Source: Pempheris klunzingeri
Lineage: Eukaryota > Chordata > Actinopteri > Acropomatiformes > Pempheridae
Assembly (NCBI RefSeq): GCF_042242105.1
Contig: NC_092027.1
Span: 1,732,506 to 1,796,505, forward strand
Direction of reading: 5' to 3'
Length of the DNA: 64,000 nucleotides
Shown: one piece after another, positions 5,055 through 51,699 of the stretch
Layout: every line of letters starts with the position of its first letter
Numbering within the stretch: the first letter of the stretch is position 1
Notes under the pieces: generated by a model
Database searches by the model: none
What the model was told of the DNA's origin: nothing
What the model saw: only the letters and a program-made list of their open reading frames with translations
Program-made: the position numbers and the translations under genes

Positions 5055-20017
<14,963 letters not shown>

Positions 20018-23017: not shown

Positions 23018-26000
23018 ATGAAGGCGCTCGTCTTCAGCAGTCTGTTGGCTTCAACTCTGTGTTGCTTTGTGTCTGCAGGTAAGGACTCCTCTGCTCTCAT
23101 ATCTAGTCCTCATCACTTTAATGCTGCTGTTTGTATATTTTTGTTATTTTAGCTACCTGTAATGAAGCCTTGTTTCAGTCAGAGTATTGATCATGTGACC
23201 AAACAGCACCTTACCTGAGCTCATATTCTCATTTTATCAGACGCTTGCTTGCTTGTTGCTGGTTACACAGAGTGGAGTTCTCAGTCAGAAAGACGAAGTT
23301 AACCGAGTTTAAATTTGGTTGAACTTTCACTCGAGCAGATGCTTAGAGGAACGTGGCTTTAGTCTCTGGTTATAATTTAAAGTACCAAAACCACGTTTAA
23401 ATTCATCCAGGTCACATCCGATGATCGCTCAGCTTATTTATTTGAAATGTGGTTTTCTCTTGCAGAAATAATCCATAAACAATCTGTGGAAAAGGGCCAA
23501 GTCTCTCTGCCGTGTCCTCACTCTGTGGAGGGTAAAGTGACGTGGAGCAGAGAGATTAATGGAAATAAAGTCGACATATTTATAATTGATGGTGAACGGG
23601 ATATAAGACCCAATGACCCTTACAAACGATACTCGTCTTTGGCAGATAAATCACTTCACATTAACAAAGTTCAAGTCTCAGACTCTGGACGATACTTCTG
23701 TAATAATGGACCAGCTGTGAAACTGAAGGTGATCCCACAAGGTAACATCTGACTTTAATAAAACTCTTCTGCTTTCTGTAATCTCTTCCTGTTTCAAAGT
23801 CACGTCTCTGAGTTAAATGTTTCCCTTTTCTTTGATAAACATAAATTCATCCGCACAATAATGAAGTGATGCAGATGGTCACAGGACATGAAGGCTGTTG
23901 TTGGGTTCAACCTGCTGCTCTGTTCGCACCTTTGACGTCTTATTAGCAGAGCTAGCGTTAGCCACATAGCGATGGCGGACAGCGAGGCAGATTGAGGTTT
24001 TCAGCCTGCTGCTTTGACACACTGGGGACTCACATTTATGTTGGAAACACATTAAAAAGTGCATTTTAACAGTAGCTAACAAGAAAACCACTTATATAGT
24101 GAAAAGAAGTGGGAGATTAAAGGCAGATTATTTTGTGTTTAATGTACTCTACCTATTATATTTAAATTTGACTCACTTTAATCCAAACCATGATCTTTTC
24201 CTCAACATAACAGAGTGGTTTTGGTGCCTAAACGTAACCAGACTGCCACTGAAAACTGATAATAATAATAACAAAATAAAACTGAAATATGAAAGTTAAC
24301 AAATCTTTCTGATTAAATTTTCTGTTTTTCAGAAGTCACAGGCTGGTTTCTACCTTTTTAGCATTTTTGCTAGCAGACAAACTTCTAGTTATGTAAGTTA
24401 GCTTCGTTTTCAGTCTCACAAGTGGAGCAAACAACATCGTCTGTGTTCAACTATGTGGTGAGAACTGATAAAGTGCATCTTAACATCCTGTATTATATGT
24501 TGTACGTGTCTTTCTCACCCTGAAGGTAACGGACTGTCACCCACAGCGGTCCAAACACCTCCAGCAACAACGTCTAAACCTACACCAACAACTGCTACAA
24601 GACCAACAGCAGCATCAAACACAGACACGACGACGGCAAAGAAAAAAAATGGTAACAAGAAACCTGAAAGAAAAAAACAAGAAAGGCAAGAGAGAGGAAG
24701 AGGGAGGATTAAATTATTCTGTGCATGTGTTTCTAGTCCACAATCTCACATTAACACATGAATATTCTCAAAGTTTATATTAAATAATATTATTATTATT
24801 ACTACAACGGAAACGTCTTGACACGATACTTTTTATGGAAGCTGTTGTAACATAAAAACATTTAACTGACCGTCCGTCCCAAATCATGATCTGTCACTGA
24901 AGTGGACGTGTCCACGTTTTGAAGCAGCGTGTTCGGCTTCATGGCCGTCGCCATTTTGTTTTTTTTGGAGCCAGAAGTGACAGTCCACAGAGACCATCTC
25001 TGATTGGTTAGTCAGCAGGTAGCCCCGCCCTAAAGAGATATCTGATCACTGTAATATAGATTTACGGTTGTGACTGGTCATAAATGGTGGATGAATTTAA
25101 TGTGAATGCTGTCAATCAAATGGTGAAACTGTTTGTCATACTGGACTCAGTCTTCTCTCTGCCCCACACAGGACGTAGAAAGACTCCAGACTTAAATAAA
25201 AGTACTGAAGAAACTTCAGCGAAGACAATAACAACTTCTACACCAGCGGTAAACAAAGGTAGGACGACAACCACAAAACAAAGACAGACTTAGAAGAAAA
25301 ACATCATTTAAATGTTATTTGTTTGTTAAATTCTCATCAGAGTTCACAATAAATCCACTGTAGCATCAGTTCGACGCTACAGATCCAGCTGCTGTTTATT
25401 AGTAATACAAATAACAGTCAACTCTATTTTTATAGCAGGTTTCATAAACTAACTTACAGGCATCAAGTGAAAAGCAGGCAAAAAATAAGTCTTTAGCTTT
25501 GTTTTAAAGATCTTTAGTGAGCTGGCGTTCTTGATATCTGCAGGTAAGATGTCCATGTTTTGGCTGCAACCTTGATTTTCTTCATCAAACCTCCAATAAA
25601 CCAGCAGCAGGAGTTTTGACTGAGTCTCTCAGTGGTAACAGTGAATCAGCTTTTCTGCATCTTTCTGATTTATAAACGGTCGCGCTAACATGAAATGTGC
25701 TGTCGTCTTGTCTTCCAGTGACTCCTGAAGAGCAACAACCACATTTTAGTTTGGTGATGAAAGTAACTGTCCCCCTACTCATCATCTTCATCATCCTCAT
25801 CACCATCATCTACTTTATCAGGAAACACAGGCTTAAAAAACAAGGTGAATAAAATCTGACCCAGAAAAAAACATATGATAAAAACAACAATAATAATATA
25901 ACATTTTAATAAATGCAAATGTGAGAATATGCACTAATACATGTGTGTGTGAGATGTTTATATATATTTCAAAGTCAAAGAGGAAAAAAAAGAAAATGTG

Positions 26001-26891
26001 CCCTGGAAATGTTTTAAATGTAAGCAGGAAAATATAGTAGAAATATTTACCATATTTTTTACAGTATATATTTTCTATATACAGAATTAACAATATGTTT
26101 TGTTAATTTATCGTCTACAACCACTTTTAAATATCCGTTATTTAAAAGTATCTTCTCTGCTTTGTTTCTGATGTCACAAACAAGGTGAGAGGGTTTTTCT
26201 AATTTTGTCACTAGTAAGATCTTTTTTTTTTCCGTCACAGGAAGTGAAGACACAAACGTCTATGAGGAGATTCACGATCGATTGGAGTCTCAACCCACAA
26301 ATGGTGAGAAATAAGAGCAGTTCCTTTTTTATAAAAAAAGCACTTCCTGTTTCTAATGAGAACAACACTGATGTGAAATTAAACACCACAATCTGCTTTG
26401 TCATGCTTTCATCCACAAAAACACATCTAATTTTTCTGAGTCTCACAAAACAACAGTGCTTTAAACAAGTTTAGTTTCTTTACTTCTTCCTGCAAACAAC
26501 ATTTGTGCTCGATAGAAAGCTCCTACTGCTGCAGGCATGCAGACTTTTTGAAGCTGCTGCTGTTTGGTTATGTTTAGGCGTCTGGCTTTATCTATAAAAC
26601 AGATCAATCGTGAGTTGATGTTAAGTTAAATGTTTTAACAGATGGATCAAACCTAAATGATCCCACGTATTCCACCATCCCCGACCTTCCTCCAGCGGAG
26701 AAGATGACCGGTAAATCATTTAAACTCAGATATTTCAGCATCGAAGGAAACCCTCTGGTGATATAGTCCTGGTCACACACACACTTTATGTATTTTATAT
26801 TTAATTTCTCCCAACAGGCACATTTGCACCTGTTGATTCCCCTTATTGCCTGATCACCTACAAGGTTACTGGTGGAAATGCTCATTATTAA
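23018..26891 (+). CDS. single-V-domain Ig receptor with mucin-like stalk and tyrosine motifs (receptor A)
   Basis: Predicted type I surface receptor of 293 residues. Exons 23018-23078, 23466-23741, 24526-24651, 25172-25258, 25719-25844, 26241-26303, 26642-26710 and 26818-26891; every intron is phase 1. Order: signal peptide MKALVFSSLLASTLCCFVSA; one V-type Ig fold (about 24-110) with B-strand SLPC, core W in VTWSRE and F-strand DSGRYFC; Thr/Pro-rich stalk over two exons (113-183); membrane segment about 195-217, rich in Ile and Leu; tail with Y233 in VYEEI, Y256 in TYSTI, Y279 in SPYCLI and Y284. SPYCLI fits the ITIM pattern (S.Y..I), while YEEI is a classic Src-family SH2 target. Signalling is inferred. 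An intron may follow the stop (donor at about 26893, acceptor near 27086). No orthologue is recognised. Confidence 0.85.
24870..25050. repeat. dispersed repeat with GGAGCCAGAAGTGAC / CCCCGCCCT core
   Basis: The segment has GGCCGTCGCCATTTTG, a T-run, GGAGCCAGAAGTGACAG, CTCTGATTGGTTAG and AGCCCCGCCCT. Related copies lie at about 34575-34770, 39675-39900 and 48585-48990, some inverted. They are non-coding, and the family is common in fish. Confidence 0.6.
25360..25680. repeat. probable retroposon fragment in receptor A intron
   Basis: The phrase CTCTATTTTTATAGCAGG and the long moderately GC-richer stretch behind it resemble fragments at retroposon 3' ends. Boundaries are unclear and no terminal repeats are visible. 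Confidence 0.3.
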
Positions 26892-27956
26892 GGTAACTTA
26901 AATCATTACAACCTCATTTTGTCTTGCACGGTGTCGAATCTGTAAATCTGTAAAATAGCAGATTAAATGTAAAACTGGAGATAATAGAAACAAACATAAT
27001 AAAGATGAATAATAATAAAATATAATATTATCATTATATATATTATAAAACAATAATGAAAGAACTTTTTTTTTCTTGATTCGCAGGTTCGTCCGTAAAC
27101 AGCGACGACCATCATCGACATAAAGGTGCTTAGAATAAGAAAATAATGTGAATAAAAAAGCTGAGATGTTGGTCAAACGGCTTTTAAAGGGCTTTAAAGG
27201 AAAAAGCACACGTGACTTTTAACATGTTTCACATGTGAAATCAAACTAAGACAAACGAAATGTTTAATTTTGCATGAAAAATGTTCTTTGTTTGACATTT
27301 TATGTTGCAAAAGAGCCTTGAAGCTTCATGAAAATGACACTGAGTGAACTAACAAGAAGAAAAATCAGCTGTTTTATATAAACATCATTTCTTCTATGTC
27401 AATATATTATTTCTATATTTTCTATTTTGTGTTCATTTGTCATGTTTCTCCTGTTTTTACCTTTTTTTTTTCCTTGTTTGAGTCTAAATGAAATTGAAAT
27501 GTTATTTTATTTATAATATTATATAATATAAATGTTCCATGTAAGGTCGATCAGCTAAACTGAGTTTGCTTCTGTTTGTTTCCCAAAATTAACTTCGTCA
27601 TCTGGAAAGTTGCTGAATTTACAGTTTAATTTTAGATTTTTATGATTCATTTGTGCATTAAACAATGAGACAGAACATCAAACTACATCAAAGCTGGTCT
27701 GCCTCCTCTTCCTGTTTCTAAAATCACCTCTGTACTAAATGTTACATGTAAATAATGTTGTTGTAAACAGCTTTGATAGCGGACGTACCCACTTCCTCTC
27801 TTTATTTTTAGCGTGTTGCTGAATGAGTCGAGTTTTGACCTTTTCATCGTTACACCACGTTGAACCGTCTTCTCTGAGTCACTTGGGTAAAGTGTGAATG
27901 CATCTTCTGATTATGATCTCTGATTGTTCACACCACCAGTGGAGCAGGTTTCACAC

Positions 27957-28550
27957 AAAATGACTAAAAAGAGACAGAAATGACTAAAAAGAGACAGAAA
28001 ATGACTAAAAAGAGACAGAAAATAACTAAAAAGAGACAGAAAATAACTAGAAAGAGGCAGAAAATAACTAGAAAGAGAGAAAATAATTAGAAAGAGACAG
28101 AAAATAACTAGAAAGAGACAGAAAATGACTAGAAAGAGGCAGAAAATAACTAGAAAGAGACAGAAAATAACTAGAAAGAGGCAGAAAATAACTAGAAAGA
28201 GAGAAAATAACTAGAAAGAGACAGAAAATGACTAGAAAGAGGCAGAAAATAACTAGAAAGAGACAGAAAATAACTAGAAAGAGGCAGAAAATAACTAGAA
28301 AGAGAGAAAATAATTAGAAAGAGACAGAAAATAACTAGAAAGAGACAGAAATAACTAAAAAGAGACAGAAAATGACTAAAAGGAGACAGAAATGACTAAA
28401 AAGAGACAGAAAATGACTAAAGAGACAGAAAATAACTAAAAAGAGACAGAAAATAACTAAAAAGAGACAGAAATGACTAAAAGGAGACAGAAATGACTAA
28501 AAAGAGACAGAAAATAACTAAAAAGAGACAGAAAATAACTAAAAAGAGGC
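27957..28550 (+). repeat. minisatellite array, unit about 21 bases
   Basis: Around 28 units of GACTAAAAAGAGACAGAAAAT and close variants (ACTAGAAAGAGGCAGAAAATA) run head to tail. There is a higher-order pattern: a block of ACTAGAAAGAGACAG and ACTAGAAAGAGGCAG units repeats in the middle of the array. The array ends about 200 bases before the first exon of receptor B. Confidence 0.97.
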
Positions 28551-28753
28551 AGTTTGGTTTGTAAAAATGGTGAAAATAGTGAAAAGTGATTATTGCGAGG
28601 AAAAGCGGGTAAATCTTGATCGTTTTGGAACACGGAAGCAGGAAAAGCAGGATGACGCTCTGTGGTTCCCAGGAAGAGGAAGAGGAGCAGCAGGGATGAA
28701 GAGCGTCCCACACACTGAAGTTCCACAGTCTGACGTCTGCTTTTCACCTGAAG

Positions 28754-30736
28754 ATGCTCAGTTTCATGATCGTCTGTCACGTCTGGTTCCTGCACACGGT
28801 CCTGATCCTCTGCAGGGAAAACTCCACAGGTACCGAAGGACCTCGTGCTCCTATATCTACATATTTTACTATATTCAGCACGTCTGTGTTTGGTTTTATT
28901 ATTGTATCACTGTTTTCTGTCAGTTCTGTATATGTGCACTGATTCAGAGTTTTCTTAATTTAACTTTTACACTTTGAGACCTTAAATGCATCAGAATAAG
29001 TTTAGGAAATGTAAAGAAGTTTGTTGCGATGAAAAAAAAATAGGTTTTCAGTTTCTTTACAGCTGCAAAAAAGTCATTATATTCAGTTTAATTGTGATAT
29101 AAATCTTTCTCAAACAACACTTTATGTACACTAAACCTCAAATAGCGGACAATATTATTTTTTAAATGAACTAAATGTGAAAAAGAAAACAAGTATTTGG
29201 CACCCAGCTCTTACGTCTATTTCTGTCTGACTGTATGTTTCCTGCGTTGTTATTTTGGGGCCGGCTGGGCAACATGTTCCCATGAGATAAAAGAGGGAAG
29301 GCAGATAAAAGAGGAAACACGGCTAAAAACTGACCATGAGCAGTCAAATGTCGGGTTACATGTGGATAACGTGATGCACAAAGGACATTCAGAATATTTC
29401 CAGTGGAAACATGAAAACCCAACAGAATATAAAGTAGTTAAAGTGAGCACAGTCCAAAGCCACCAGACTCCATTGAAAAAAACATTAATTTTACACAGTG
29501 ATTTCTGGTCTACCGGTGTCTTGATCAGTTAGTTTGTTTGTGTTGTTGTGTGTGTGGTGTTTTAAAGGGTTACTTTGGATCCAACACAACATTTGTGAGA
29601 CACACAATAAACAAACTGATCAAGGCGGCGATAGATCAGCAATGCCTGTGTTCTGCAAAGTAAAATCCCTGTTTTTGTGAATGGAGTCTGGTGTGTTTGC
29701 AGAGAGCGATATAACGAGCCTTTTGGTAGAGAGCGAGCTCTGCTAACACACCAGACTCCATTCACAAAAACAGTAATTTTACCTTGAAGAACACAGGAGT
29801 GGCTGATCTACTGCTGCCTCTATTGGCTTGTTTGTTTGTGCTATTGTGTGTTGCACAAGTATTGTGTTGGATCTGAACAAACCCTTTAAAACACCAAAGT
29901 CACACCACAACACAAACAAACTAACCGATCGAAGCAGCAGTAGACCAGAAACTCCCATGTTAAATCCCTGTTTTAGTGAATGGAGTCTGGTGTGTGTGCA
30001 GAGAGCGATATAACAGCTGTTTGTGGTTAAACCAAAAGGATCTTCCAGGTCTCTCTCTGTAGGGATCCTTTCCATGATGCTGTCACACACTTAGAATAAC
30101 ACTCTGAGCCTGTCAGTGGATCAAACAAGCTCTTTTAGTGGACCTACTGTGATCAGGTGCAGTTGTCCCAAAGGATCACGTTGCAGCCATTGCAGCCAAT
30201 AAAAGTGAAATTAAACATGGTGAAATAAAGAGATGAGGGTTCCTGTTTCTGTCCTCTGCCAGTGATCCGGTTCTCGGTCCCTGAGGATCACCACGTCAGC
30301 CTGCCGTGTGGAGGCCTTGACGACCCCGATGTGGTCTGGACCCACCAGGACAGGAAGGTCCCGGTGACCCTACTGGAGGACTACAGCAGCAGTGAGGACG
30401 GCACTCGCTACCTGCTGCTGCCCGGCGGCGGCCTGCACCTCCTGCAGCTGGACGACTCCGACAGCGGGGAGTACCGCTGCAACCAGAGGCTGGTGGCCGA
30501 GCTGCAGGTGCTGACAGGTGCGCTGGGGGCGGAGCCGAGAGTGGTGCATCATGGGAGTGAGGGACACATGTACAAGTGTGCCTTTAAAGTGTAAAGCTGT
30601 TGACAATTATCCTGACAAAACAAATATTAAGGTGTATTTTTGTGTGTTTTCTCTGTCTGATAAGTGACTGAAAATTATTATGAAGGAGCTTTTACATGAT
30701 ATTTTTCTAAAAGAGGATTCCTGCAGTCTGAATTTG

Positions 30737-30787
<51 letters not shown>

Positions 30788-32629
30788 ACCTCAAAATGTA
30801 CAAAAGTGAACTTTTAAATCCGAACTGGAGACTAAACGCAGATTTTTGCCAAATGTTGGCTTTGATTGCTCCACAATCTCTGATCTGGTCTCTTACACTC
30901 TGTGGTTTAGGCTCATAATGTTTCATGTACCACCTGCTGAGAGACACAATGATAAATACCCATAGTTCCTCTTTGTTTCTGCCCCCCCCCCCAGGCCGTG
31001 ACTTCATGGTGTCTGCAGGCTGGACGCTGCTGCTCCCCTGCAGCACCTCCAGACCCAAAAAGAAGTGGTTTTATCAGCGGAGGGAAGGAGGGAGGCAGGA
31101 GGTCATCTTCACCTGGTTCAAAAACGGTACGGCGAGACCAGAGAGGGAGGGGGGTCGGCTCAGCTACGAGAACGGCGCCCTGCAGATCCGGGACCTGCAT
31201 CCAAACGACGCCGGAGTCTACCTGTGCAACAAGAAGGTGGTGGGCAGACTCACCGTCCTGACAGGTGGGTGGTTCCACATTCAGCTCAGTTAGTGTGTGC
31301 TTTTACTTTTAATGTTCTTGATGTGATACGTCCCGAAATAATCCATGTTTTCAAATGAATTGATGAATTTTGACGCTTTTCTATGAATTTTTCAACTTTT
31401 ATTTACTCATTCATGCATTTTCCATCTAGAGACTCCAGTCAAACTTTGAAATGTCCCATATTTTCCAAACATTTTGGGTTTTGGGGGTTTTAATCCCATC
31501 AAACCTTCTAACCAAAGTACTGGAAGTGCATTCTGGGTTTTAACTCAACTTTTAAATCCCATTAAAACTCTATTTAAGGTTTGTTTACAATGGAAATGAA
31601 TGAGAAAAACCTTCAAACCCGCCCACACAGGTTTCATTCATGCATCCACATAGAAACTCTCAAAACTTTGAAATGTTCCACATCTTTCATACATTCTGTG
31701 TTTTATTGAATTAAAACATACAACTGCATTTTAAGTGTGATGAACTGATATAATATAATTTAATATAACATAATTTAATATAATTTAATTTAATATAATA
31801 TAATTTAATTTAATTTTATTTTATTTTATTTAATTTAATTTAATTTAATATAACATAACATAATATAATATAAGACAGTTACTACGGCCTGTTATTTCTA
31901 TATGGCTGCTGCTATGGATCTTTTTTAATTAAATAAAATCATTTTAAAGTCACTATTTTGTGCCAAATTATAGATTTCTTCTGTATGAAGCATCATTATT
32001 GTAAAACGAACCCCTTCACCTTGATTCTAGATGACACCTGCACATTATCCCTTACCCATAAAGCACTCTGCTCAGGTAGTTACGCTTTGAGAGGAGTTAA
32101 CAACTTGTTCTAAAAAAAACTTCTTTTCTTATTAATCAGTGCAGCCAGAGCCAACCGGCGTCCAGCAAACCAGCAGCACGACCCAAACACCCACTGTGAT
32201 GAAAACAGGTGGGATTCATTTACATCAGTACAACAGAAACATGAAGAATAATTTAAGTCAGTTTCAATTTAATTATCAACTGCTTGTATTTTGATTAAAT
32301 GCTTATTTTATTCTTATAAAGCTTATAAACAGATTAATGTATGAATGTGGGAAAATGTTACATCCAGTTTGACCATTTTTGTGCATTTTTTAAAATAATC
32401 AATTTCATGGTGGTCAAATGTTAAATATTAATAATCAAAAAAAAAAACCAGAATGTTTTCTCATATTGAAATAAACAGCACTGCAATATAAAACAATGAA
32501 AAGTGTGCGTATCAATAGTTTGTTAACTGTTTCATGTTGTTCCTACTCTGTTTGTCAGATGTGGTTGAAATAAAAAAGAAGAAGAAGAGACCAGAGAACG
32601 GTCAGTCACATCCTTCCCTCACCGCCCCC

Positions 32630-32715
<86 letters not shown>

Positions 32716-34145
32716 AGCTTAAGTGATCACCACCATGAATACAAACAAATAAATAAGCAAAATAACAAAAGAAATAAAAAAGTTTTGCAGGTAAATAAAT
32801 ACAAATGTAATGATTGTGAATGTTTGACGAGCGGCTGCTCTGCCTGTCGTCTCTCTCAGCCCTGCTGATGGTCGCCGTCGTCGGTTTGGGGTTAATGATC
32901 CTCCTCATGGCCGCCGTCTGTGTGTTACTGACCAGCATGAGGTGCAGGAGCAAGAAGAGATACAGACGCACGGGTCATTATTTCTTTATTCAGTCTGTTT
33001 CATCAGATTTTTCTTTTTTTACAAAACATTTCTTGGAATTGAAAAACTGGAAAATTGATTTTTTAAAAAATTTCTTTGTGTATTTTATGTAGTTAATTCA
33101 TTCATGTATTCATTTCCTGTCCCGTTAGTCGTGTTCCTCCATATGTGTGGTTTTAATATCACATCTCTGTGTTTAAAGTTGAAGCAGTAAGAAACTTCTG
33201 CAGCCCATAAACGTTTCAAACCAGTTAAAGGATAACGTTGGTATTTTTAAACAACAAAGTTTTGTTTTACATATTTTGAAATTTAAATGACTTGAAAGCA
33301 CAAAAACTGGTCCAGTAGACTGCCTCAGCTGGCAACCGAGAATGAGTGGTTAAGTGATCCTTTGGGACAGCTGCACCTGATCACAGTAGGTCCACTAAAA
33401 GAGCTTGTTTGATCCACTGACAGGCTCAGAGTGTTATTCTAAGTGTGTGACAGCATCATGGAAAGGATCCCTACAGAGAGAGACCTGGAAGATCCTTTTG
33501 GTTTAACCACAAACAGCACACACACCAGACTACATTCATAAAAACAGGGATTTAACATGGGAAATGATGGTCTACCGCTGCTTTAATCGGTTAGTTTGTT
33601 TGTGTTGTTGTGTGACTTTGGTGTTTTAAAGAGTTAGTTCGGATCCAACACAATATTTGTGTGACACACAGTAACACAAACAAACAAGCCAATAGAGGCA
33701 GCAGTAGATCAGCCACTCCTGTGTTGGTAAAACTCCTGCAAGGTAAAATTCCTGTTTTAGTGAATGTAGTCTGGTGTGTGTGCTGTTTGTGGTTAAACCA
33801 AAAGGATCTTCCAGGTCTCTCTCTGCAGGGATCCTTTCCATGATGCTGTCAGACACCGAAGGATTACAGCCATTACAGCTCAGTCTCATTCCAATAGTTT
33901 CTGTACCTGCCAGTCATTTGAAATTACGAAACATTTTTTTGTGACAGATCAGTGATACGAGGAAACTGCTGCCATCTTTATGTTCATCCTCTTTTGTTTC
34001 ATCAGCAGCAGCAGCAGCAGCTCAGAGGCACGAGGACACCGAGCTGCAGCCGTGGAAGACGTCCAACACACAAACTGGTAAAACCCTCATTCCTTCTCAC
34101 TGCATGCTTCACTAATCCTCAGGTGTGTTCTCACCTGTTAGCACA

Positions 34146-34195
<50 letters not shown>

Positions 34196-34351
34196 GAGTG
34201 TGTGCTTTACGAGAGCTCGTCTCAGCCGGAGGAGACGATCCATTACGCCTCTCTGGGCCGACAGAACTGGAGGGAGAGACCCAACTGGACCGATCCGAAC
34301 CACCACGACGTCATCTACTCCTCCGTCATCACCAGACCTGCCGCCAAATAG
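28754..34351 (+). CDS. two-Ig-domain inhibitory receptor with paired ITIMs (receptor B)
   Basis: Predicted type I surface receptor of 350 residues. Exons 28754-28829, 30263-30517, 30995-31264, 32140-32208, 32559-32600, 32860-32973, 34006-34077 and 34197-34351; all introns are phase 1. Domains: signal peptide MLSFMIVCHVWFLHTVLILC; Ig 1 (about 26-110) with SLPC, core W in VVWTHQ and SGEYRC; Ig 2 (111-200) with LLPC, FTWFKNG and AGVYLC; short stalk containing a basic KKKKKRP run; membrane segment about 238-262; tail with Y304, Y316 in TIHYASL and Y340 in DVIYSSV. The last two fit I/V-x-Y-x-x-L/V, so recruitment of SHP-type phosphatases is expected. This makes it inhibitory by motif. The acceptor of the seventh exon lies in a CAG run, so in-frame variants that drop or add residues are likely. 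Family placement among fish Ig receptors is open. Confidence 0.87.
29455..30180. repeat. palindromic interspersed repeat, tandem double copy
   Basis: Two units lie head to tail in the first intron of receptor B. Each has ACACCAGACTCCATTCACAA with an AAAACAGTAATTTTACC arm and the inverted arm TGTTTTTGTGAATGGAGTCT. The outer right arm runs through GATCTTCCAGGTCTCTCTCT and GGATCCTTTCCATGATGCTG to GTTGTCCCAAAGGATCAC at about 30180. That end is the mirror of the left end of the copy at 33353. Confidence 0.8.
30738..30786. repeat. (AC)n microsatellite
   Basis: About 23 AC units lie between the two Ig exons of receptor B. Confidence 0.95.
31735..31875. repeat. AT-rich pentanucleotide-like tract
   Basis: Repeated TAATT and TATAA words (ATAATTTAATATAA) form about 140 bases of nearly pure A/T in a receptor B intron. 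Confidence 0.8.
32629..32715. repeat. (GATA)n microsatellite
   Basis: About 21 perfect GATA units begin 28 bases after the donor of the fifth exon of receptor B. Confidence 0.98.
33353..33855. repeat. palindromic interspersed repeat with long terminal inverted arms
   Basis: This is the most complete single copy. The left end is TGATCCTTTGGGACAGCTGC, followed by ACCTGATCACAGTAGGTCCA, GAGCTTGTTTGATCCACTGA and GGAAAGGATCCCTACAGAGA. The right part is the reverse complement (CTCTCTGCAGGGATCCTTTC, ATGATGCTGTC). It lies in the last-but-two intron of receptor B. There is no transposase, so it is probably a non-autonomous foldback element. Confidence 0.8.
34152..34190. repeat. (CT)n tract serving as polypyrimidine tract
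   Basis: About 20 CT units end seven bases before the acceptor of the last exon of receptor B, so the repeat doubles as its polypyrimidine tract. Confidence 0.9.
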
Positions 34352-34574
34352 ACAGAAACACACACTACTGCGTCCTGTCGTGGCCCTCTGACACACAGCA
34401 GGCGGATGAAATGTTAAATATAAAACCACAGGATCATAATTATACATGTAAATGATCTTTCTGGAAGTAAACGTTTGCTGTTAAAGAGTCTGATTTTGCT
34501 TAACGTCGTCCTTTCAAGGGAAATTTACATCAGAAGTACACATTGACTGTATTAACATGGATGTGGCTGCATGA

Positions 34575-39100: not shown

Positions 39101-41809
39101 GACTTTGAATGAACGGTCTGTTTTGTCCGTACCGTACATCCATTAAGACTACAACTCCCAAAGAGTCCGATCTTCCTGTTTTCCATGTATGTAATTGAAC
39201 AGTGTGCACAGATCCTGGTGTGTGGAAGCTGTTTATTGTGTTATTCTACAATTAAACAAGGTGATGTTATATCGTTTCACTTCTTACAGTGTCTCTTCAT
39301 ATTAATATCGAAGGTTCGAGGCAGTGGACTTTGGAGCCATCACCAATGTCAAATTTGAAAGTTTTGCAAATCTAAAAACCCTTTGTTTACTTTTCCCTTT
39401 CCCGGACTCGTCCTGGCAGCACGTTCTCCTTTCAGAGAGCTGAGATGTGTCCGTAGATGATGGAAAGAATAAATGAAATAGTAATAAATAGATAATAAAC
39501 ACACAACCAACCATCAGACCACGCACCTGAGCACAGGAAGGATGTGACGATGATGACGACACACAGGACGAGTGAAGCTGGAAGAACACAGATCCCCAGA
39601 CTCCAACATGGCTGCGTGTCTGACTCCTTATAAGCTCCTGGAAACACGAAACACAGTAAAGTGAAGCAGTGGAGCAGTTTCACGGCCGTCGCCATCTTGG
39701 TTTTTTTGGAGCCAGAGGAGCAGGTAGCTAGAGACTGAGAGCAGAAACTCATCAGGAAGATGTTCACTGAGCTGATAAATCATTTCCTCATTGACATCCA
39801 TCCAATCAGACTCCTGTTTGGAGCCAGTGGAGTCGCCCCCTGCTGGACATCAGACCCAGAAGCTACGCCCACTTCTTATATACAGTCTGTGCATCTGACA
39901 AAGACCTCCTCCTCCTCCTCTGAGATAAAATCTAATGTTAAACTAATACAGCGACCTTCTTACCATCCACAGCCAGATGAACTCCTCTGTCCACATGAAC
40001 AGCTCCTCCTCTCCGGCTGGTGCAGAAATACAGGCCGGCGTCCTCCTCCTGCACCCCCAGGATCTCCAGATCGGCCGACCGATTGAACTGGACGACCTCA
40101 ACAACTTTGATGCGGCTGTTTGCAGTGTGAAAACTGACTATGTGTTGTCCCGCTTTACTTGGTGTAACCGTCAGCAGAGGCAGCAGCTGATCTGAGCGCA
40201 GGAGGTACCAGGTGACGTCCATGCCGGACGTCAGGTTACAGGTCAGCAGGACGTCCTGCCCCGTCTGGTGCACCCGGGGAACAGGTGAGGCCGAAGACGG
40301 GCGGCTTCCTGCAACGCCTGAGGAGGGTAAGGAGGGCGGACGGTGGAGGAGGAAGGAGCATCATCAGCATACTTGATCTCATACAGATAAAACTGTGTGT
40401 GGACACCTCTGTCTGTATACATCAGTGTACTGGTGGTCTGTTTGGGCTTCAGTTCAAATGAAAGGAACTCTTCTTCACGCTACTAAAGACAATTTAATTC
40501 AAAACCAGTGGTTCAGGATGAATCTGAGGAGTCACACAGTGATTGAAAACATATTTCTGCTGCACAAAATCGTGTTTAGATCTAAATATCTGTTAACCTT
40601 CCAGTCTCCAGTGTGCTCTACTGTATAAATGTATAATCCTCTTCCTCTTTCTTCCTCCTCTCCTTCTCCCTAGCCAGGTTTGCACAGCGGATTTTACTTG
40701 AAATCTGGATATTTTAGATTAATTAAGATTTCTTTTCATCTTTTGGTATTGTATACTAGTCTTATGTTAAACTATTCTACTCTAGGTTGGACATATTTTA
40801 TATTTCCACATATCGTTTCCTTTTCTTTTCACCACTGTTTTTGTTAAGTGTTGGTTGTCTTGTGGTGGCTATCTGTCTGTCTGTCTGTACCACTGCCGTG
40901 ACAAAGTCATTTCCTGTGAAGGACTAACACAGAAACTATTCTATTGTTATTCTAGTGTGGTCAACCAATGGAGGCTCTGAGGAAATCTTTCTGTTCTATC
41001 AAATCTCCGTCGTAATATGAAATAGTTCAGATCTCTTCTGGAGGGTTCACAGATCTTTAGTTTCTGTTTCTACGTTCATGTTTTCTGTCTTTATTTAGTC
41101 ATATTTGATGGAAAAACCAAAAAAAAATGTTTCCCCATATATGGAACAATCAACAAAAAGAAGTTGAAGATGCTGCAAGAAACGACGTCACATTAAGAAA
41201 AATACCACAACAGGCACAGACGAACTTTTAGTTTACAGACTTTACGTGTTAATGATCAGATTCTAGCGTCTCTTCACACCTCGAGTCTTCGCCGCCTCTG
41301 CGTTCACGTACATTTCTGCAGAGCGGCTGCAGATCTCACTCTAACTGCACCCTGGGAAGGTGGAGACGAGGTTTTTGGGAGGTCAATGACGACATTTTTG
41401 GCTTCGGACACTGATCCGAGTCACCGTCCACAGGCTCATGTGATGCCTGACAACAAGCGATGTAAGAAAACCCTCTTGAAGCAGGTCCCAGGTGATCAGA
41501 CACACCCTCACACCTGTGGATTTGCTTTTGTTTTCACCTTAGCTCTGGTATTTCTTTCTCCAGCTTGTGTGACTCGACCAAAACCAGCTGTTTCTTGAGA
41601 ATAAAATATGAAAACACCAAAATAAACACACCAGACATGACAAATATGAAGCTCTAATCCTCTAAGTCAACCCTTCTCTTGTGCCAACAGTCCTTGAATC
41701 TCTCCACGCAGCACCTTGAAAGTCTCTCACTGCATTTCAATTAACAAATATTTAGTGAAACTGTCCTTAACTTACAGAGGAGAGGGAGGATCCATGTGAG
41801 AGCTGCCAT
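36104..41809 (-). CDS. single-V-domain Ig receptor with two ITIM-like motifs (receptor C)
   Basis: Predicted type I receptor of 235 residues on the minus strand. Exons 41776-41809, 39964-40317, 39527-39637, 37049-37110 and 36104-36250; introns are phase 1, 1, 1 and 0, and the frame closes exactly. Order: signal peptide starting MAALTWILPLLCVAG; one V-type Ig domain with LLTC, core W in VTWYLL and EEDAGLYFC; short stalk; membrane segment about 143-165; cysteine-rich juxtamembrane exon with AVCCCDSARC; tail with Y193 in SLHYSSL and Y219 in DVTYSAV. Both tail motifs fit the ITIM pattern, suggesting an inhibitory role. The V domain (WYLLRSDQLLPLL, SADLEILGVQEED) has the look of CD8/TCR-like fish receptors. 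The large intron between the membrane and juxtamembrane exons holds the PARP-like gene on the other strand. No firm orthologue. Confidence 0.83.
36520..36945. mobile_element. solo-LTR-like fossil
   Basis: A segment of about 430 bases without coding content has the composition and order of a retroviral-type long terminal repeat: a TATAAAGAA promoter-like box near 36745, a downstream GC-richer part, and CAATAAACC near 36890 as a poly(A) signal. Its surroundings are AT-rich and unlike it. No internal viral genes lie beside it, so it would be a solo LTR. The ends are approximate and I did not identify a target duplication. It lies inside the last intron of receptor C. Age is uncertain. Confidence 0.45.
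37452..38600 (+). CDS. predicted ADP-ribosyltransferase-fold (PARP/Gig2-like) protein, two coding exons
   Basis: Predicted protein of 282 residues. Coding exons 37452-37790 and 38091-38600 join in phase 0. The start is the first ATG after a strong pyrimidine tract and CAG (acceptor at about 37447), which implies an upstream non-coding exon; an in-frame ATG at 37290 exists if that intron is not removed. The first exon is acidic and Ser/Pro-rich, ending in a KINPKDFFHPQYDYDFTNIK block. The second exon carries a compact domain with YVRPCGWTRVALQVL, WPVSYHG (H162), GRGVYSTPD (Y205), KYCRKF, YKVLLQNRINP and a C-terminal IRPYGLLLKL. The spaced His and GRGVY Tyr fit the H-Y pair of PARP-type transferases, as in the fish virus-inducible Gig2 family. 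The third catalytic residue is not clear, so activity is unproven. It is nested inside an intron of receptor C on the opposite strand and is markedly GC-rich. Confidence 0.85.
39675..39900. repeat. dispersed repeat with TCCAATCAGACTCCTGTTTGG words
   Basis: The copy reads GGAGCCAGAGGAGCAG, CATTGACATCCATCCAATCA, GGAGTCGCCCCCTGCTGGAC and CTTATATACAGTCTGTG. The reverse complement appears at 48595-48720 (CCAGCAGGGGGCGACTCCAC, GTCTGATTGGATGGAAGTCA). It is a common fish repeat, here in an intron of receptor C. Confidence 0.7.
41268..41319 (-). pseudogene. orphan exon-like frame, tail-type peptide
   Basis: Downstream of a CTCTGCAG acceptor the minus strand reads E-MYVNAEAAKTRGVKRR and then a stop, with a phase-1 entry like the neighbouring receptor exons. 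A Y-V-N motif of this kind is a Grb2-type SH2 target and is common in short receptor tails. It lies inside intron 1 of receptor C and cannot be its last exon. It may be the surviving tail exon of a lost neighbour, or chance. Confidence 0.25.
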
Positions 41810-41964
41810 GTTTCAGAGGGTGAAAGCTCCGGGAGGACTGTTGAGTTCATTCAGGGAGCAACAAGTGAAGTTAGAGGGAGGAGATGTGCTGCAGGACAGA
41901 CAGCAGAGACCACCAACATGCCTTTATTAGTGCAGAAAACGAAAGACTGAGGATTTCCTACTAA

Positions 41965-41995
41965 TCACACACTCACACACACACACACACACACT

Positions 41996-42054
<59 letters not shown>

Positions 42055-42090
42055 ACACACACATGTACACACACACACACACATGCACAC
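41965..42090. repeat. (AC)n microsatellite, interrupted
   Basis: Blocks of AC units are broken by TCTC and GTAC, with TGTAC and TGC interruptions, between receptors C and D. Confidence 0.95.
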
Positions 42091-42109
42091 ATACACTCTC
42101 TACGTGGCA

Positions 42110-42960: not shown

Positions 42961-42969
42961 GTGGACAAG

Positions 42970-43239
42970 ATGAGGCAAGAAATTAAGAGGTACGGGTGAG
43001 AGACATTTATTTTGAAAGGAAACGCTTCTTTTGCAGCCAGTAAAAATACATTTGCATTTCCTTCTGCGTCTGCTTTACTTTATTACTTTACTGCGTATGG
43101 TCAAGCAGAATTAACAGAGGATGCTTTTTCTTTAAATTAAAATATGCAACAAGAAGTTTACAGGCTGCAGAAGGTGGAAACATCTGCAGGATAAAAACTA
43201 TTCTCTTCACATTCAGTTCAGCAGGTGAGGACAGGTAAC

Positions 43240-43276
<37 letters not shown>

Positions 43277-46200
43277 AGTTTCATTAGTGAGGAAACCAGC
43301 AAGTGAACAGAAACGAAAGCTAGTGATCAGATTAGATCATAGTACTCATGGGGGGAACTGTGGTTAAGATCCAAGTGACATTTGAGCAATAAAACAAACT
43401 AGTAAATTGATTTTAATGTCTGAATATAAGAAGTGGAGTCAGTTTTTGGTGTTAAAACCATTAAATAAACATATTTTTTTTCAAATCCAAGACTCATCAT
43501 GTGAAAGAGACTCATCCAGAACCTCTTAAACTGTTTTTTAACCAACACCACTGCTGTATTTCATGTTAAATGTTACTTAATTCTGTATAATTTAGACATT
43601 TTAGTCTTTTCTTGTTGCATTTCACACTTTTTTATGTCATTTTACAAGCTTTAAATCAATATAATAAATAAAATCTGCTTAATTATACTGAATAAACAAC
43701 TTTATTTATTATGTACGATGTTCTAGAGACTGATTATTTCTGATTTTTCCAGTCATTCCTTCAGGACCCTCCTTCTCCTTCAACTTCACTGTCTCCTGCT
43801 TGTCCATTTAGTTGGTGAGTATCAGCGTGTGGTTGACGCTCACAAACCCGTTAGCTTAGCGTTGTTTCAGCCGGATGTTTTAGATATCACCTGGATTTTG
43901 GACCCAAAAACTGGCGCCAATTCTGTCCAGTAAGAGCCATTTTTGGAAAAGTTTAGGTTTAGGAATGAGGTCGAGGTGGACAGATGGGTTAGTGAAACCA
44001 AAAGTAACCCAAACCACCAACGCCTCCTAATCTAAACCAGCTGCTGCCTACTAACTAATCACTGTTATAGATCCTCTATAACTACAGATGTCTCACTACA
44101 GCCTCAGTAATATATTATTCCTGCTGTAGTGGACTGTAAGCAGAGTTTTTATAGTTATTATTGCAGAGAATGAAAAGAAAGTTAACTTCAGAGGATGAAC
44201 CACACCCTCATTATTCTGTCTGAATCCTCAGCGGATGTCGTCTCTGCGCTGGAATCTCAGACAAATGAAACCATTCATGGTTAATTCATTAATCACTAAC
44301 ATGTGACTTCCATGAAAAGGGTTTGAAGGAGAAGTTAAAAACATGAGCTGAGGAACAAGTGGTTCATATTTTGGTTTGGACTTCGTTTTTTATAAGCTTT
44401 ATATATTTATTTTATACGTCGTCCTCTTGTTAGTTGTCTCTGTTCTTGCTCGTAAAACTTTTGGCTCTTAAAAAACTGGCTGACTGGACGTTCAACATTT
44501 AGAAACAGGCCATTTTTCATCACTTTAACATGACTTTTCCTAAAACACAGCTAAACATTTTGTATTAAAAGAGCCTTCATGCCCCTGTGTAGCCCCTGAA
44601 CTACAGTTAGCTAGCGGTTCCCAAGCTGGGGGTCTCTTAGGGCCCCTCTTAGGGGTCGCACCAGGGAAGGCAGAGCGGTCGTGGGATGATTAATGGGGGA
44701 GGAAAGACGGAGAAACAGAAATGGTGGATAATTTGACCTCTTGGGGAAACATCTGAGGTGGACCTGCAGCTGAGATTATATTGTACATGTTTAATAAATA
44801 TAGAGTCACACCTACGATATTATTTCCCTGGAGTAGAAATATAAAGCAAACTTACTAAAGTAAGTACATATTCCTTCATTAGCACTTAAGTTAATATATT
44901 TTTCTGTGACTGGTGTCAGCATATCGTCTAACGTTAGCGAGGAACTAATCGTCCAAGACGTTGCCTCTCCTCTCCCAGAATCCTCTGCCCACCTCCAGAT
45001 CGTCACCTCCAAGGTGGGAAGCCGGGCCGTGCTTCCCTGCAGCTGGAAGCTACGCCTGGAGGAGGCGCCCCCGTCCCCCTGCCATGTCCAGTGGAGGAGC
45101 CCGGCAGACACCGTGTTCGAGCTCTGGGGAACGCAGAAGTGGCAGTCGGAGGAGTTCGATGGCCGGGCGGAGATTCCCGAGGACAAGCTAGAGTCCGGGG
45201 ACTGTTCCCTGATCATCAAGGACGCTCAGATCGTTGACGCGGGGCGATATGAGAGCTTCATGGTGGTGAATGGAGTGAGATCCACAAAGACCAGGGTCTT
45301 CATTCAGAGCGTCAAGCTGTCTGTGCTCGGTCAGGGTCGTCTTCTGTTGTCTTTTTATCTCATGTAGACTAATCCGTGCTGACGTCTTTACTGACCTTGG
45401 ATGTTTGTTGTTCCTTTTAGACCATAAGTCCCTGCAGACCCATCGTCCGGGGGAGAATTTAGTCCTGGATCTCTACACCGTTCACTCTGAGAGAGTGGTC
45501 TTCCAGGGCAGGTGAGTCATAACTAAAAGTGGGGGTGGATGGTTAGTGGCAAGCAGGTAAACTTTCATTTAATTCACACCAGAGGCTTCAATCGGGACCA
45601 GTAAAGCTGCTCTTTCAGTATGAAGCTATAAACAAACCCATTTTCCTGAGATAAAACAAAAACCAACTAAAATAAAAGCACCTTTTCTTCTGTATGCTCT
45701 GATCTTTCCTTCCTTATCTCTTATTCCATTGTCTCATCGCCCGGCTCCTACGCTCAGGTTACCTCCTCTGATGGTTTGTTCCCACCGCCCAAAATGACTG
45801 TTTACAGCAAACTAAGACTAAGATTACAGGCTGCTGGTGCAGCCATGAGTCAACCTGTGATGTCTGCTCACAAAGTGGAGGGTAAAAAGAGACACAATCA
45901 TGATAGTAATGGAAAAAAATAAGAGACTTCATGTGGGGGAACTTACCAAAGTCAGTATTAATCATATGTGGTGTTTCTCCCTGTTGCTGTTGACGCACAG
46001 CAGATACAGGAACCAGGATATCATATTACTACATCAAACTATTTTGATACCATTAACACACTGCGTCCTGCGACAGCTGCTGTCTTTGCCTGTGAGGTTG
46101 CTTGTACAAACTTGCAGCACAAGTGTTATCAACACTAAGCACCTTTTTGTTTCTGGTGCAACAGTTTGCTCTTAAAGATGTAAATGGAAAAAAATGAAAA

Positions 46201-49200
46201 ATAAATCTGATGTTTTGTTGCAGAAGTGGTTAAGCCAAGGACAAAAGACAATAAAGACGTCTGATGGCGATACAGGGAAAGACTTCGGGCTGTTACATGA
46301 GCCAAAGCAATGTGCTATTTGACTAAATGTGTCACTGTAAAAATGCACGTCCAATTGGATTCTGGCACCATGACGGACATGGAGCTCACGGCGACTACAG
46401 TGCTACTGTAGAGAAGAACGATTGCAAAGTTAAAATGAAGGAAGCGTAAATTTTGCGGATCCTCGAATTCGTGTAATTCGCCTCTTGTGAGGGCGAGGAC
46501 ACCAGGTTAGAAAAATATATTGTGATTGATTTATTCTGTGCACCACCTGTCGGAAAGGATGTTAAATCTGTTCCTTGCTCCTGTCGGGATGCTTTCTATG
46601 AACGGCATGCCGAAGACAACGATGGCGCCTATTCTGTCCAATGAGAATTTCCCATCTGGTGCATTCGCCAAAAAAAAAGCTTCTTTCTCTTGGATTATGC
46701 TCCCGATTACGCCGCCTGCTGAATATGCTCAGCAGTGTTAATCCCAAGGCCTCTGGCCTAACTATGAGACATGAAGAAAAAAGAAAAACGTGCAATATTT
46801 CCTATATTTTTTTATATTTTTATAACCAAACCATGTGCAATAGCCTTTTTCATCATGCAAATTACACTGTTGTTTGTATATACTGGATATATATATATAT
46901 ATATATATTCTCCTTTTTTATATCTTTTATTTATTTTTTATATTTCTATATATCTTTCCAGTGTATGTGTATGCATGAACTGCTGCTGCTGACACTGAAT
47001 TTCCCTGCCGTGGGATGAATAAAGGCTAATCTAATCTAATCTATGCTGGTGATTGGCTCTTTTAACAAAGATTAAACTCCCATGGTTTAAAGAAAAAGCG
47101 GCTATTGGGAAAAATTGGAATTAAGGCTGAGGTATCCAGTTCTCATGATGCATCCATGGTCTATTTTCACTGAAAGATTAAAGCCATGAATCTGCGAATC
47201 TGTGAGCTCATGTTTTATGTGCTCTGTTAGATGCGTCCGGCCTGATAAGATACGATACGCCACTGAGGCATTTCCATAAACAACCAAAATGGCGGCCAGT
47301 GATGTGGAGCGTCCTGTTGAATCAGCATCAAACGAAGTGCACGTAAAGGTTAAGTTGATAAGAAAGATGTGTTTAAGTCAGCGCCGCGTCACATGTTTTG
47401 CCGCTCTGATTGGTTGTAGGTCTATCCAATCACATCAGAGGCGTTTCGGTCTGCGCCCATCGTTAAGACCCTTCGGAAACTGAAAATGAAGCGAGAGGTT
47501 CTGAGAGCATTTGCGACTCGTCGATGCGATGGCAGGCGTACGTGGAGCTGCGCGAGAAAAGCTGTTCGACTCTTCTGAGAGGATCGCGATCACTCAGAGC
47601 TCTTTGGCGAAACAAAGCTGCTTTACCACCCGAAAGATGGTAAGGTGGTTCTCCTCTTCTTCTGGGGTTCTTCTTCATGAACGTCTCTATCCCCTGTGGT
47701 GAGTTTGTGTCCTCCATCCTGATCTGTGTTTAAATTCCACCACAGGGCAACGCTCGGGAGGCACGTGGGCAAGCTCGCCGACCAGATACCGCGTGTGGAG
47801 CGGACGAACCCGGGCTCACTTATGGCGCTTTTCCATCACACAGTTTTAGCTCTACTCGCCTTAACTCGCCTCGGTTTGGTTGGTTTTCCATTACAATTGC
47901 GTACCACCTCAACCGGATGAGTAGGTACGAAAAAAGTACCAGGTACTATCAGCTAATGGAAAAACCCAAAAGACCGAGTCGGGTCGGGCCGAGTCGAGCT
48001 GAGTAGGTGTTAGAGGAAAAGCTCCATTAGCGGCTTTGATGAAGGTGATCTCAGCCACCAAGTCCCCGACCCGAGAGGAGAATACTTTGGATCCTTGTTA
48101 CGCGACAGTGAGCTGTCTGACCACATCATGATCCACCTGAGTCCTGCATGCAGACAGAAACTAAACCTCCTCCATCATCATCATCATCATCATCATCTGG
48201 AGTCACTCGCCACCAGTCTGCCGTCTCCCCAGGACCCCGAGGTGAGCAGGACAGATTACGGTCGACTCCCTCCACCCCAGACTTTTTCCAAACTCTCGCC
48301 TCCAGCAAGAAGCTGAAGTCCATCAAGACCAAGACCTCTCACCAAAAGAACAACATCTCCCAGACTTTAAATGAATGAACTGTTCCGTCTTTATTTTTAT
48401 GCCCCAGAATAAAAAAGAGGAAGAAGAAGAATTCCTTGTATGTGAAAATCTACTCTGGGAATAAATGAAGATCACAGCACTTGCTGCGTGCTGAAGGCAA
48501 GACGTTGGAAACTTATTTCCAAGTTGCCCTGACATGTCCTTCAACCATATGCTGTGACGATGCTGAAGAGCCTTAAAGCTGCATCCTCTCTAACGTCCAG
48601 CAGGGGGCGACTCCACTGGCTCCAAACAGAAGTCTGATTGGATGGAAGTCAATGAAGAAATGATTTATGAGCTCAGGGAACAGTTTCTGCTCTCAGTCTC
48701 TAGTTTACTGTCTTCTTCAGCACAGCAGGATGTTCATTTAGTCAATTATGGTCCATTTAGAGGAAGATACACCAGGAAGAGGGGGCGGGCTTTAGGGCGG
48801 GGCTACCTGCTCACTGACCAATCATAGGAGGGTCACGCCTAAACCTAACCAATCAGATCCGGTTATTTTTTGCAGAATAAACGTCATTTCTGGCTCCAAA
48901 ACCAATATGGTGACGTCCTAAATGCCAAACATGAGGCTTCATAATGGCGTTCCACAAACCAGTGAGTGATGTCACAGAGGCTACGCCCCAAATTTCACAC
49001 AATGGATATCAGAATTTGATCGCCAGATTGTCATTAGATTAAGAGAGATTAACTCTTTTTATTTTGATTACTTCTTTAGCTGTGCTGTTTCCAAGATATA
49101 GAGGAAGGTTGGATTTTTATGAATTTCACTCCGTAGATTCTTTGTCCCCAGAGGATGAAGTCATTTCAATTTGTTTACCGTTATATCTAGTGTCATCGTC

Positions 49201-50239
49201 AAGACAAAAAGTAAAGCTTGTAAGTAAACTGAAAACTAAATGGGCTGGTTTTCATTCGTTTCACAGGATATACTCATGCTTCCTTTTTATTTCCAGGAGC
49301 TCTGACTGAAAATGTGACCTTTGCTGAGTGCATTCATGCTCCCCAGAGGATGAACCCTTTTGCTGGGCGTTTTCCTTTCCTAGCTCCACTCCTGGTGATC
49401 TGTTGCGATTACCAAAATGATCTGTGACTATAACAGCTGCTCTTATTCTTTTTTGTTGGCTTGTTCTAAGGATTACTGAACTGTGCTCCGCAGGAACAGC
49501 TCGGAGTGGTCGGACCTGTGGAAGAAGGGGGATAAAGACTGCCATCGTATGGAGAAAAATCCACTGAGAGACCAGCTGACCATTAAGAAGCTCGAGAGGT
49601 CGGACGAAGGGACGTACAAGGTGCTGGATCAACACGGGCTCGCTGTGAGCACTGTGCAGCTTTCGGTGGACGGTGAGAGGCCATTTTGTTTTTCTCTCTT
49701 ATTAACCTCCTGGTGCATCAGCCAAGTGATGAAGGTCAGATTATGGATCATAACTGCGATTATAGATGCATAAAGTCTTTGTGTCTATTATCAAGAAGTC
49801 ACATTATATTGCGTTTAGTCCACAGACCACTTTTTAGCTCTCACCCGGGATGGTTAGTGAAACATTTTGACATTACATTTGTTTCTGGGAGCTACAAAAG
49901 GACCAGAAAACAGGTCTCCCCTACTCCAGTAGTTCAACTTTAGTCTTAACCGGCACAACGGGTGCATTTCTGCATGCGATCCATCTCCTTTCTGACTTTG
50001 AAAACTGTTCACCGTTTCACAGAAAGTTCCCCACCTCCCAAAAGCCATCAGATTCAGGAAATTCAGCCGCTAGCAGGTGAGAAAATAACATTCAGGTAAA
50101 TGACGGAGACTCACCTGAGGGGAAAGCTTGTGCAATAACCGTCTCTGCTGTCTTTCCAGATGACGCTGCCAAAAACGTCTGCTCAGCTCTTCTCCTGCCT
50201 GTTCTTGTCACGACTCTCCAAATTCTTCATCACTCCTGA
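42970..50239 (+). CDS. two-Ig-domain surface protein with hydrophobic C-terminus (protein D)
   Basis: Exons 42970-42989, 43753-43814, 44979-45329, 45421-45511, 49494-49672, optional 50027-50077, and 50160-50239. The frame closes with the optional exon (277 residues) or without it (260). Exons 1-2 give a signal peptide (SHSFRTLLLLQLHCLLLV). Exon 3 is a V-like domain with AVLPCSW and core W in HVQWRS, but where the F-strand Cys is expected it reads AGRYESF. The second Ig-like domain is split over exons 4 and 5 and has no canonical Cys pair; its end is RSDEGTYKVLDQ. The last exon encodes NVCSALLLPVLVTTLQILHHS, a hydrophobic end with almost no tail, which suits a GPI signal or a tail-less anchor. 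Introns are mostly phase 1, and the split of domain two is phase 2. A 4 kb repeat-rich intron separates exons 4 and 5. No orthologue recognised. Confidence 0.72.
43241..43277. repeat. (CTG)n microsatellite
   Basis: Twelve CTG units end in CAG in the first intron of protein D. This is not an exon, because the open frame is not maintained on either side. Confidence 0.95.
46745..47043 (+). mobile_element. LINE 3' end with (TCTAA)n tail
   Basis: AT-rich sequence with an (AT)n run at about 46889-46908 leads into TTTCCCTGCCGTGGGATGAA, TAAAGGC and CTAATCTAATCTAATCTA. This is the classic LINE terminus, in the large intron of protein D. The body upstream is not recognisable. Confidence 0.6.
47050..47820. 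other. unassigned repeat-like DNA in intron of protein D
   Basis: The composition rises in GC and CpG here compared with the rest of the intron, as in a recent insertion. Open frames of 60-85 codons on both strands carry no known domain. I could not find terminal repeats. Confidence 0.3.
47824..48025. mobile_element. MITE with GGCGCTTTTCCAT / GGAAAAGC ends
   Basis: The left end GGCGCTTTTCCATCACACAG and the right end near GTTAGAGGAAAAGCTCC form an imperfect terminal inverted repeat around about 200 bases. Inside, GGTACGAAAAAAGTACCAGG and GGTCGGGCCGAGTCGAGC are also partly palindromic. No coding capacity. I assign it to a non-autonomous DNA transposon of unknown superfamily. Confidence 0.6.
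48172..48198. repeat. (CAT)n microsatellite
   Basis: Eight or nine CAT units lie in the protein D intron. They create a poly-His or poly-Ser run in open frames, which should not be read as protein. Confidence 0.85.
48585..48990. repeat. composite copy of the GGAGCCAGAAGTG / GACCAATCA repeats
   Basis: The left part (GTCCAGCAGGGGGCGACTCC, TTGGATGGAAGTCAATG) mirrors 39740-39860. The right part (AGGGGGCGGGCTTTAGGGCG, TGACCAATCATAGGAGG, TTTCTGGCTCC) matches 34585-34760. The two families therefore probably belong to a single longer element. Confidence 0.65.
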
Positions 50240-51683: not shown

Positions 51684-51699
51684 TACATGATGGACAGAA

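Follow-up and report, generated by a model that had tools for sequence, protein, structure and literature searches.

The 64,000-nt stretch of Pempheris klunzingeri DNA analysed here (the window), whose gene content points to a vertebrate with teleost-like genes, carries a cluster of four immunoglobulin superfamily (IgSF) genes, termed A to D, between an ATF6-type basic leucine zipper (bZIP) gene, atf6b, and vps52. The gap between these two flanking genes measures 33.7 kb (20,017-53,763), and beside the IgSF genes it contains a two-exon gene with ADP-ribosyltransferase (ART)-like motifs. Pfam searches recognized six Ig domains across the four genes in the order 1, 2, 1, 2; the distance of about 34 kb and the one/two/one/two domain plan, both proposed in an initial annotation of this DNA, were thereby borne out.

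Pfam matches were judged against the curated family cut-offs, which for V-set is 26 bits. An immunoreceptor tyrosine-based inhibitory motif (ITIM) was scored as strict when it followed [SIVL]xYxx[ILV] and as loose when it followed xxYxx[ILV], and chance levels were obtained from 20,000 shuffles of each tail. Splice sites were scored with crude weights; the models of genes A and B, the ART-like gene and the mature part of gene D have GT/AG sites and consistent phases.

Gene B carries a tandem ITIM tail

Gene B is made up of a leader, two V-like domains, a short stalk, a transmembrane (TM) segment and a last exon with ITIMs, giving a protein of 336 amino acids (aa), or of 312 aa when an optional 72-nt exon is left out. 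Its second domain matches V-set above the curated cut-off (E 7.9e-10), and its first domain has Ig_3 as the best match, below the cut-off (E 8.6e-5). The tail bears two strict ITIMs, IHYASL and VIYSSV, with their tyrosines 24 residues apart, and such a strict pair was matched in 0.275% of the shuffled tails, while two loose strings appeared in 4.8% of them. Judged by its sequence, gene B fits the definition of an ITIM receptor, and it is the only one of the four genes in which strict ITIMs beyond chance were found. A tandem ITIM tail is shared with the catfish LITR family (IpLITR), a likeness of tail layout alone: the ITIM tyrosines of LITR 1.1b are 22 residues apart, and both LITR 1.1b and LITR 1.2a recruit SHP-1 and SHP-2 through their tails (PMC4810170). 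Because the ITIM pair is rare among shuffled tails and its spacing of 24 compares with the 22 of the SHP-binding LITR 1.1b, gene B is probably an inhibitory receptor.

Inverted repeats were also observed within the introns of gene B, at 29,461-30,179 (210 nt, 91%) and 33,354-33,856 (164 nt, 99%), together with direct copies, which suggests recent mobile-repeat activity inside the receptor gene.

Genes A, C and D differ in their domains and tails

Gene A encodes a leader, one short V domain matching V-set above the curated cut-off, a two-exon stalk in which Ser/Thr/Pro make up 49%, a TM segment, and a three-exon tail. Among the five tyrosines of this tail, three stand in the strings NVYEEI, PTYSTI and SPYCLI, of which only SPYCLI is a strict ITIM; since 13.2% of the shuffles equal that, it is not beyond chance, and the three loose strings occur jointly in 1.7% of the shuffles. 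Three of the seven acceptors of gene A score at least 5. With its weaker tyrosine motifs and a stalk of mucin-like kind, gene A would probably be a receptor related to gene B.

The V exon of gene C matches V-set above the curated cut-off (E 2.5e-10) and spans the model almost fully, with 11-116 of the exon lying on 3-108 of its 109 positions. Splice scores of this gene range from 4.6 to 9.2. Leader and tail exons of gene C were not found, the leader scan yielding only a dinucleotide-repeat artefact, and strings such as IIYGHI in the read-through past the donor, which resembles an AT-rich intron, were not counted as motifs. Among the best 60 of 158 PDB matches at E up to 0.1, MuSK (2.2e-4) and pIgR (4.5e-4) lead, followed by NITR10 (8.4e-4) and then by T-cell receptor (TCR) chains, with NITR11 at 3e-3 and BTNL2 low in the list (0.0016). 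From these sequence comparisons, the domain of gene C is of V type without clear family membership, and the gene would encode a V-type receptor. A dispersed repeat forms an inverted pair at 39,756-39,854 and 48,589-48,687 (91%), one copy lying about 120 bases upstream of the TM exon of gene C.

Gene D consists of a hydrophobic leader piece (43,753-43,814), a V-like exon (44,979-45,329), a second Ig domain divided by a 4-kb intron between 45,421-45,511 and 49,494-49,672, a stalk exon (50,023-50,076) and a C-terminal exon (50,160-50,239). The mature part is open over five exons, its first codon taking its first base from the leader piece, which ends in G, and an initiating ATG of gene D was not found. 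Its first domain matches V-set at E 1.8e-5, just under the cut-off, and lacks the canonical second cysteine (GRYES); the two halves of the second domain match I-set below the cut-off (E 0.0019 and 0.0042). The final exon ends in DDAAKNVCSALLLPVLVTTLQILHHS, which is hydrophobic, and the gene has neither a cytoplasmic tail nor an ITIM. With a 19-residue hydropathy of 1.61, compared with 2.8-3.0 in the other TM segments, the C-terminus looks like a glycosylphosphatidylinositol (GPI) signal or a tail-less anchor. PD-L1 and CAR, both at E ~4e-4, are the best of 36 PDB sequence matches at E up to 0.1, and BTNL2 stands low at 0.071; structure prediction of the first domain without an alignment gave a mean predicted local distance difference test (pLDDT) score of 50, too poor for a fold search. 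Gene D probably encodes a B7/CAR-type ligand or co-receptor that is GPI-linked or tail-less.

Taken over the four genes, the initial annotation of ITIM or ITIM-like motifs in three of them was too generous: a strict pair beyond chance was found in gene B only.

A two-exon gene with ART-like motifs

The gene between B and C presents, in this order, the motifs WPVSYHG (YHG), GRGVYSTPDVRMAEKY and DTWLVY (TWLVY), a pattern which we take to be reminiscent of ADP-ribosyltransferases. Over its full length the 282-aa protein gave no Pfam match at E up to 1, and no PDB entry matched at E up to 10. The C-terminal half has a weak match to DUF3990 (E 0.15), presumably a family of the ADP-ribosyl clan, and no match in NCBIfam. 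In viral contigs, eight stretches fitted the peptide pattern of this half and none was confirmed; one plasmid match, at E 0.8, was at chance level. AlphaFold2 prediction of the domain without an alignment was uninformative (mean pLDDT 30) and too poor for a fold search. The label PARP-like that the gene had first received has its basis in these motifs, and the gene is best described as ART-like by motif, unproven.

The cluster is mixed and non-rearranging

Comparison of the six Ig domains with one another (E-values of a six-sequence comparison without composition correction) related the domain of gene A to the first domain of gene B (B1; 30.5% identity over 82 residues, E 9e-10) and B1 to the second domain, B2 (31.1% over 90 residues, E 1e-7), whereas the domains of C and D reached no better than E 0.005 with the others, over short stretches. 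Because of this, the cluster as compared by sequence is a mixed one and not one tandem family: A and B have short V domains in common, C has another V type and D is B7/CAR-like. A profile of the six domains, circular for these domains themselves and informative for other open reading frames (ORFs), was run against the window ORFs of at least 30 aa; it returned six matches, namely five whole domains and the second half of the split domain of gene D, and the remaining seven matches were weak, with E-values between 0.45, for the first half of the split domain, and 4.3.

Across the whole window, recombination signals did not exceed chance: at three mismatches, one match each was found with the 12- and the 23-spacer, against 1.13 and 1.34 expected, and neither match adjoins a V exon end. 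The genes are thus non-rearranging.

Several known receptor families stand close to the cluster. The NILT genes of salmonids, carp and zebrafish share with it one or two V domains, a TM segment, an ITIM tail, a clustered arrangement and Ig exons in phase 1. Two features define the NILTs, an Ig domain with an additional CXnC cysteine pair (n=3, 6, 7) and an ITIM exon in phase 0 (PMC3022915). By contrast, domains A, B1, B2 and C have two cysteines each, the first domain of D three (spacings 13 and 40) and its second domain one, and an extra CX3C, CX6C or CX7C pair was present in none of the domains tested; the ITIM exon of gene B starts in phase 1, its first two bases belonging to a codon divided between exons. 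Both of the NILT features tested are thus absent here. Gene C resembles the NITRs in that its V exon covers nearly the whole V-set model and in its PDB matches to NITR10 and NITR11; it differs in scoring higher against MuSK and pIgR and about as high against TCR chains. The NITR V domain bears a J-like FGXG motif, which is not kept by every NITR; the full motif was not found in gene C, whose V exon ends in VDRGVHLAVDG with one motif glycine only. With the DICPs, which are MHC-linked and in zebrafish lie with major histocompatibility complex (MHC) class I Z genes, gene B has in common two V-like domains and ITIMs, a likeness of architecture only.

Flanking genes and other features

Flank-gene Pfam queries were exon pieces joined by hand. 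On the minus strand, atf6b was recognized from its first coding exon (19,946-20,017), a bZIP exon piece (10,783-10,887; bZIP_1 E 1.4e-9) and a C-terminal landmark (5,262-5,333); the choice of atf6b over atf6a and the assignment of this landmark to ATF6 are assumptions that follow the initial annotation. Likewise on the minus strand, vps52 extends from its C-terminus (53,763-53,906) to the N-most exon piece seen (63,531-63,641), with matches to Vps52_C (E 7.1e-49) and Vps52_CC (E 5.5e-29). A Tc1/mariner element with inverted end arms occupies 50,382-51,688 on the minus strand between gene D and vps52, its DDE_3 (E 3.6e-11) and HTH_Tnp_Tc3_2 (E 3.2e-23) domains lying in separate ORFs, and a 600-bp minisatellite of 21-nt units (27,953-28,552; 29 copies, 91% matches) lies between genes A and B. 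Matches to PF11354 DUF3156 (36,637-36,906, E 0.0035) and PF09331 DUF1985 (3,344-3,577, E 0.017) fell below the cut-off and were discarded. All gene models are collected in Table 1.

Table 1. Gene models in the window, with their positions, strand and basis.
Feature	Positions	Strand	Basis
atf6b (ATF6-type bZIP gene), flank	5,262-20,017 (C-terminal landmark to first coding exon)	-	bZIP_1 match and landmarks
IgSF gene A	23,018-26,891	+	8-exon model, open frame of 293 aa; V-set E 4.6e-9
IgSF gene B	28,754-34,351	+	6- or 7-exon model, 312 or 336 aa; Pfam; ITIM statistics
Two-exon gene with ART-like motifs	37,452-38,600	+	Open frame of 282 aa and splice sites
IgSF gene C	39,527-40,317 (V exon 40,317-39,964; TM exon 39,637-39,527)	-	V-set match; exon frames
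IgSF gene D	43,753-50,239	+	Five in-frame exons after leader piece; V-set 25.3 bits vs cut-off 26
vps52, flank	53,763-63,641 (5′ end may extend further right)	-	Vps52_C and Vps52_CC matches

Discussion

The proximity of vps52 to atf6b is already known in teleosts, and what is added here is which receptors this fish keeps between them. The arrangement is in print, since the salmon IB region has been given in the order RING1b, RPS18b, VPS52b, VHSVb, ATF6b, TNXBb (PMC2846915) and, for Salmo, the MHC Ia region has been described with ZAA, a gene of the MHC class I Z lineage, sitting between ATF6a and the VHSV-induced gene (PMC7853315); the salmon IA region is also given with RPS18, VPS52 and the VHSV-induced gene (PMC1971071). 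The extended class IA and IB regions of Atlantic salmon thus share the vps52 and atf6 flanks and have one further gene or more in between. They differ from our window in that the excerpts of these reports name no IgSF receptor in the slot, which in Salmo is given with an MHC class I Z gene. In Chinook salmon and coelacanth ATF6b is placed right beside TNX, and in lungfish the two lie near each other (PMC11401434). In medaka and stickleback the TNXB-ATF6 block is reported to lie ~13 Mb away from the MHC region. Zebrafish vps52 has been mapped to chromosome 19, in a study that did not find the ATF6B (CREBL1) orthologue (PMC1309616). In the open-licence literature, taken as text exclusive of gene-map figures and supplements, we found no report of IgSF receptors in the vps52-atf6b slot, which is a weak absence.

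The human ATF6B-VPS52 interval holds the IgSF genes AGER and BTNL2. These and NKp30, UrIg and other MHC-linked V genes are likewise non-rearranging IgSF members in or beside the MHC. NKp30 and UrIg have been discussed as non-rearranging V genes of the MHC (PMC10751288).

In our favoured interpretation, which we hold to be reasonably probable, the interval belongs to the extended MHC class I scaffold of teleosts, whose variable middle is filled here by an ART-like gene together with four IgSF genes that do not rearrange, with gene B an inhibitory receptor. By this model the scaffold would run RPS18, VPS52, a variable middle, ATF6 and TNXB, the middle holding a Z-lineage MHC class I gene in Salmo and IgSF plus ART-like genes in this fish; vps52 and atf6 in one short block, the mark of the scaffold, is what the 33.7-kb interval presents. 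The V-like domain pair of gene B would bind a surface ligand, both ITIM tyrosines would be phosphorylated and SHP-1/2 would be recruited, making gene B most likely an inhibitory leukocyte receptor. Expression, ligands, signalling and MHC linkage in this species we infer. The initial annotation had proposed an MHC-linked innate receptor cluster. The MHC linkage stands in outline through the published teleost maps of the flanks, nothing else in the window supporting it, and the innate receptor part fits gene B well and gene A moderately, while C and D agree with it by domain type only.

Several results speak against this interpretation. No MHC, TAP or proteasome domain was found in 32 Pfam-searched pieces (selected ORFs and exons of the window), and no MHC or FN3 family match in 10 ORFs among these pieces, nine of them outside the cluster, in a window that reaches vps52 on one side and 5 kb past atf6b on the other. 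The two top PDB matches of gene C are MuSK and pIgR. Several splice sites are weak, namely the acceptor of the PTYSTI exon of gene A (26,642; 0.0), the donor of the TM exon of gene B (32,973; 2.1) and two acceptors of gene D (49,494, 1.8; 50,023, 2.4). Moreover, no start codon was found for C or D and the V domain of D is short of its second canonical cysteine, so that either gene could be decaying.

This last point, together with the want of a usable tail for gene C, is the ground for regarding C and D as decaying pseudogenes, which would reduce the cluster to two receptors and relics. We consider this unlikely, as both genes keep long open exons, GT/AG sites and consistent phases, with the mature part of D open throughout, and some Ig domains, those of the CD2 type, work without that disulphide. 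About equally doubtful is the notion that A to D are copies that landed here by chance from large IgSF families spread through teleost genomes, akin to NITR, DICP, LITR or NILT, and that their place is meaningless. The genes do look like at least three domain types, and the dispersed repeats and the Tc1 element among and beside them favour insertion, much as a salmon NILT bacterial artificial chromosome also carries seven transposable-element genes (PMC3022915); however, four IgSF genes stand within 27 kb between two scaffold genes, and the same slot in Salmo is reported to hold an MHC class I Z gene.

The two-domain ITIM architecture of gene B would also suit a different history, in which A and B would correspond, in neoteleosts, to the DICP receptors and the slot beside ATF6/TNXB would be their ancestral home. 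Linkage of Z genes to TNXB and ATF6 is reported for salmon, medaka, stickleback, platyfish and tilapia, which with the linkage of DICP to Z genes in zebrafish is in keeping with such a home, but the support is of architecture and position, not of sequence, and we rate the proposal as quite improbable. A bolder extension of the scaffold interpretation is put forward as a long shot: in this fish lineage the slot would have turned into a compact receptor locus (inhibitory B, its relative A, V-type C, GPI-linked B7/CAR-like D and an ART-like gene of antiviral function) that passes on as a single haplotype together with MHC class I and co-evolves with it.

To our knowledge, whether fish natural killer (NK)-type receptors are co-inherited with MHC class I molecules, their likely ligands, is an open question. 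With vps52 and atf6b as named flanks and one well-formed candidate inhibitory receptor between them, this locus offers a place for asking it. A fine-mapping study of a quantitative trait locus for resistance to tilapia lake virus reportedly contains the word vps52 seven times, a word count rather than a reading of its content, so that the vps52-atf6b neighbourhood may bear on how farmed fish resist disease.

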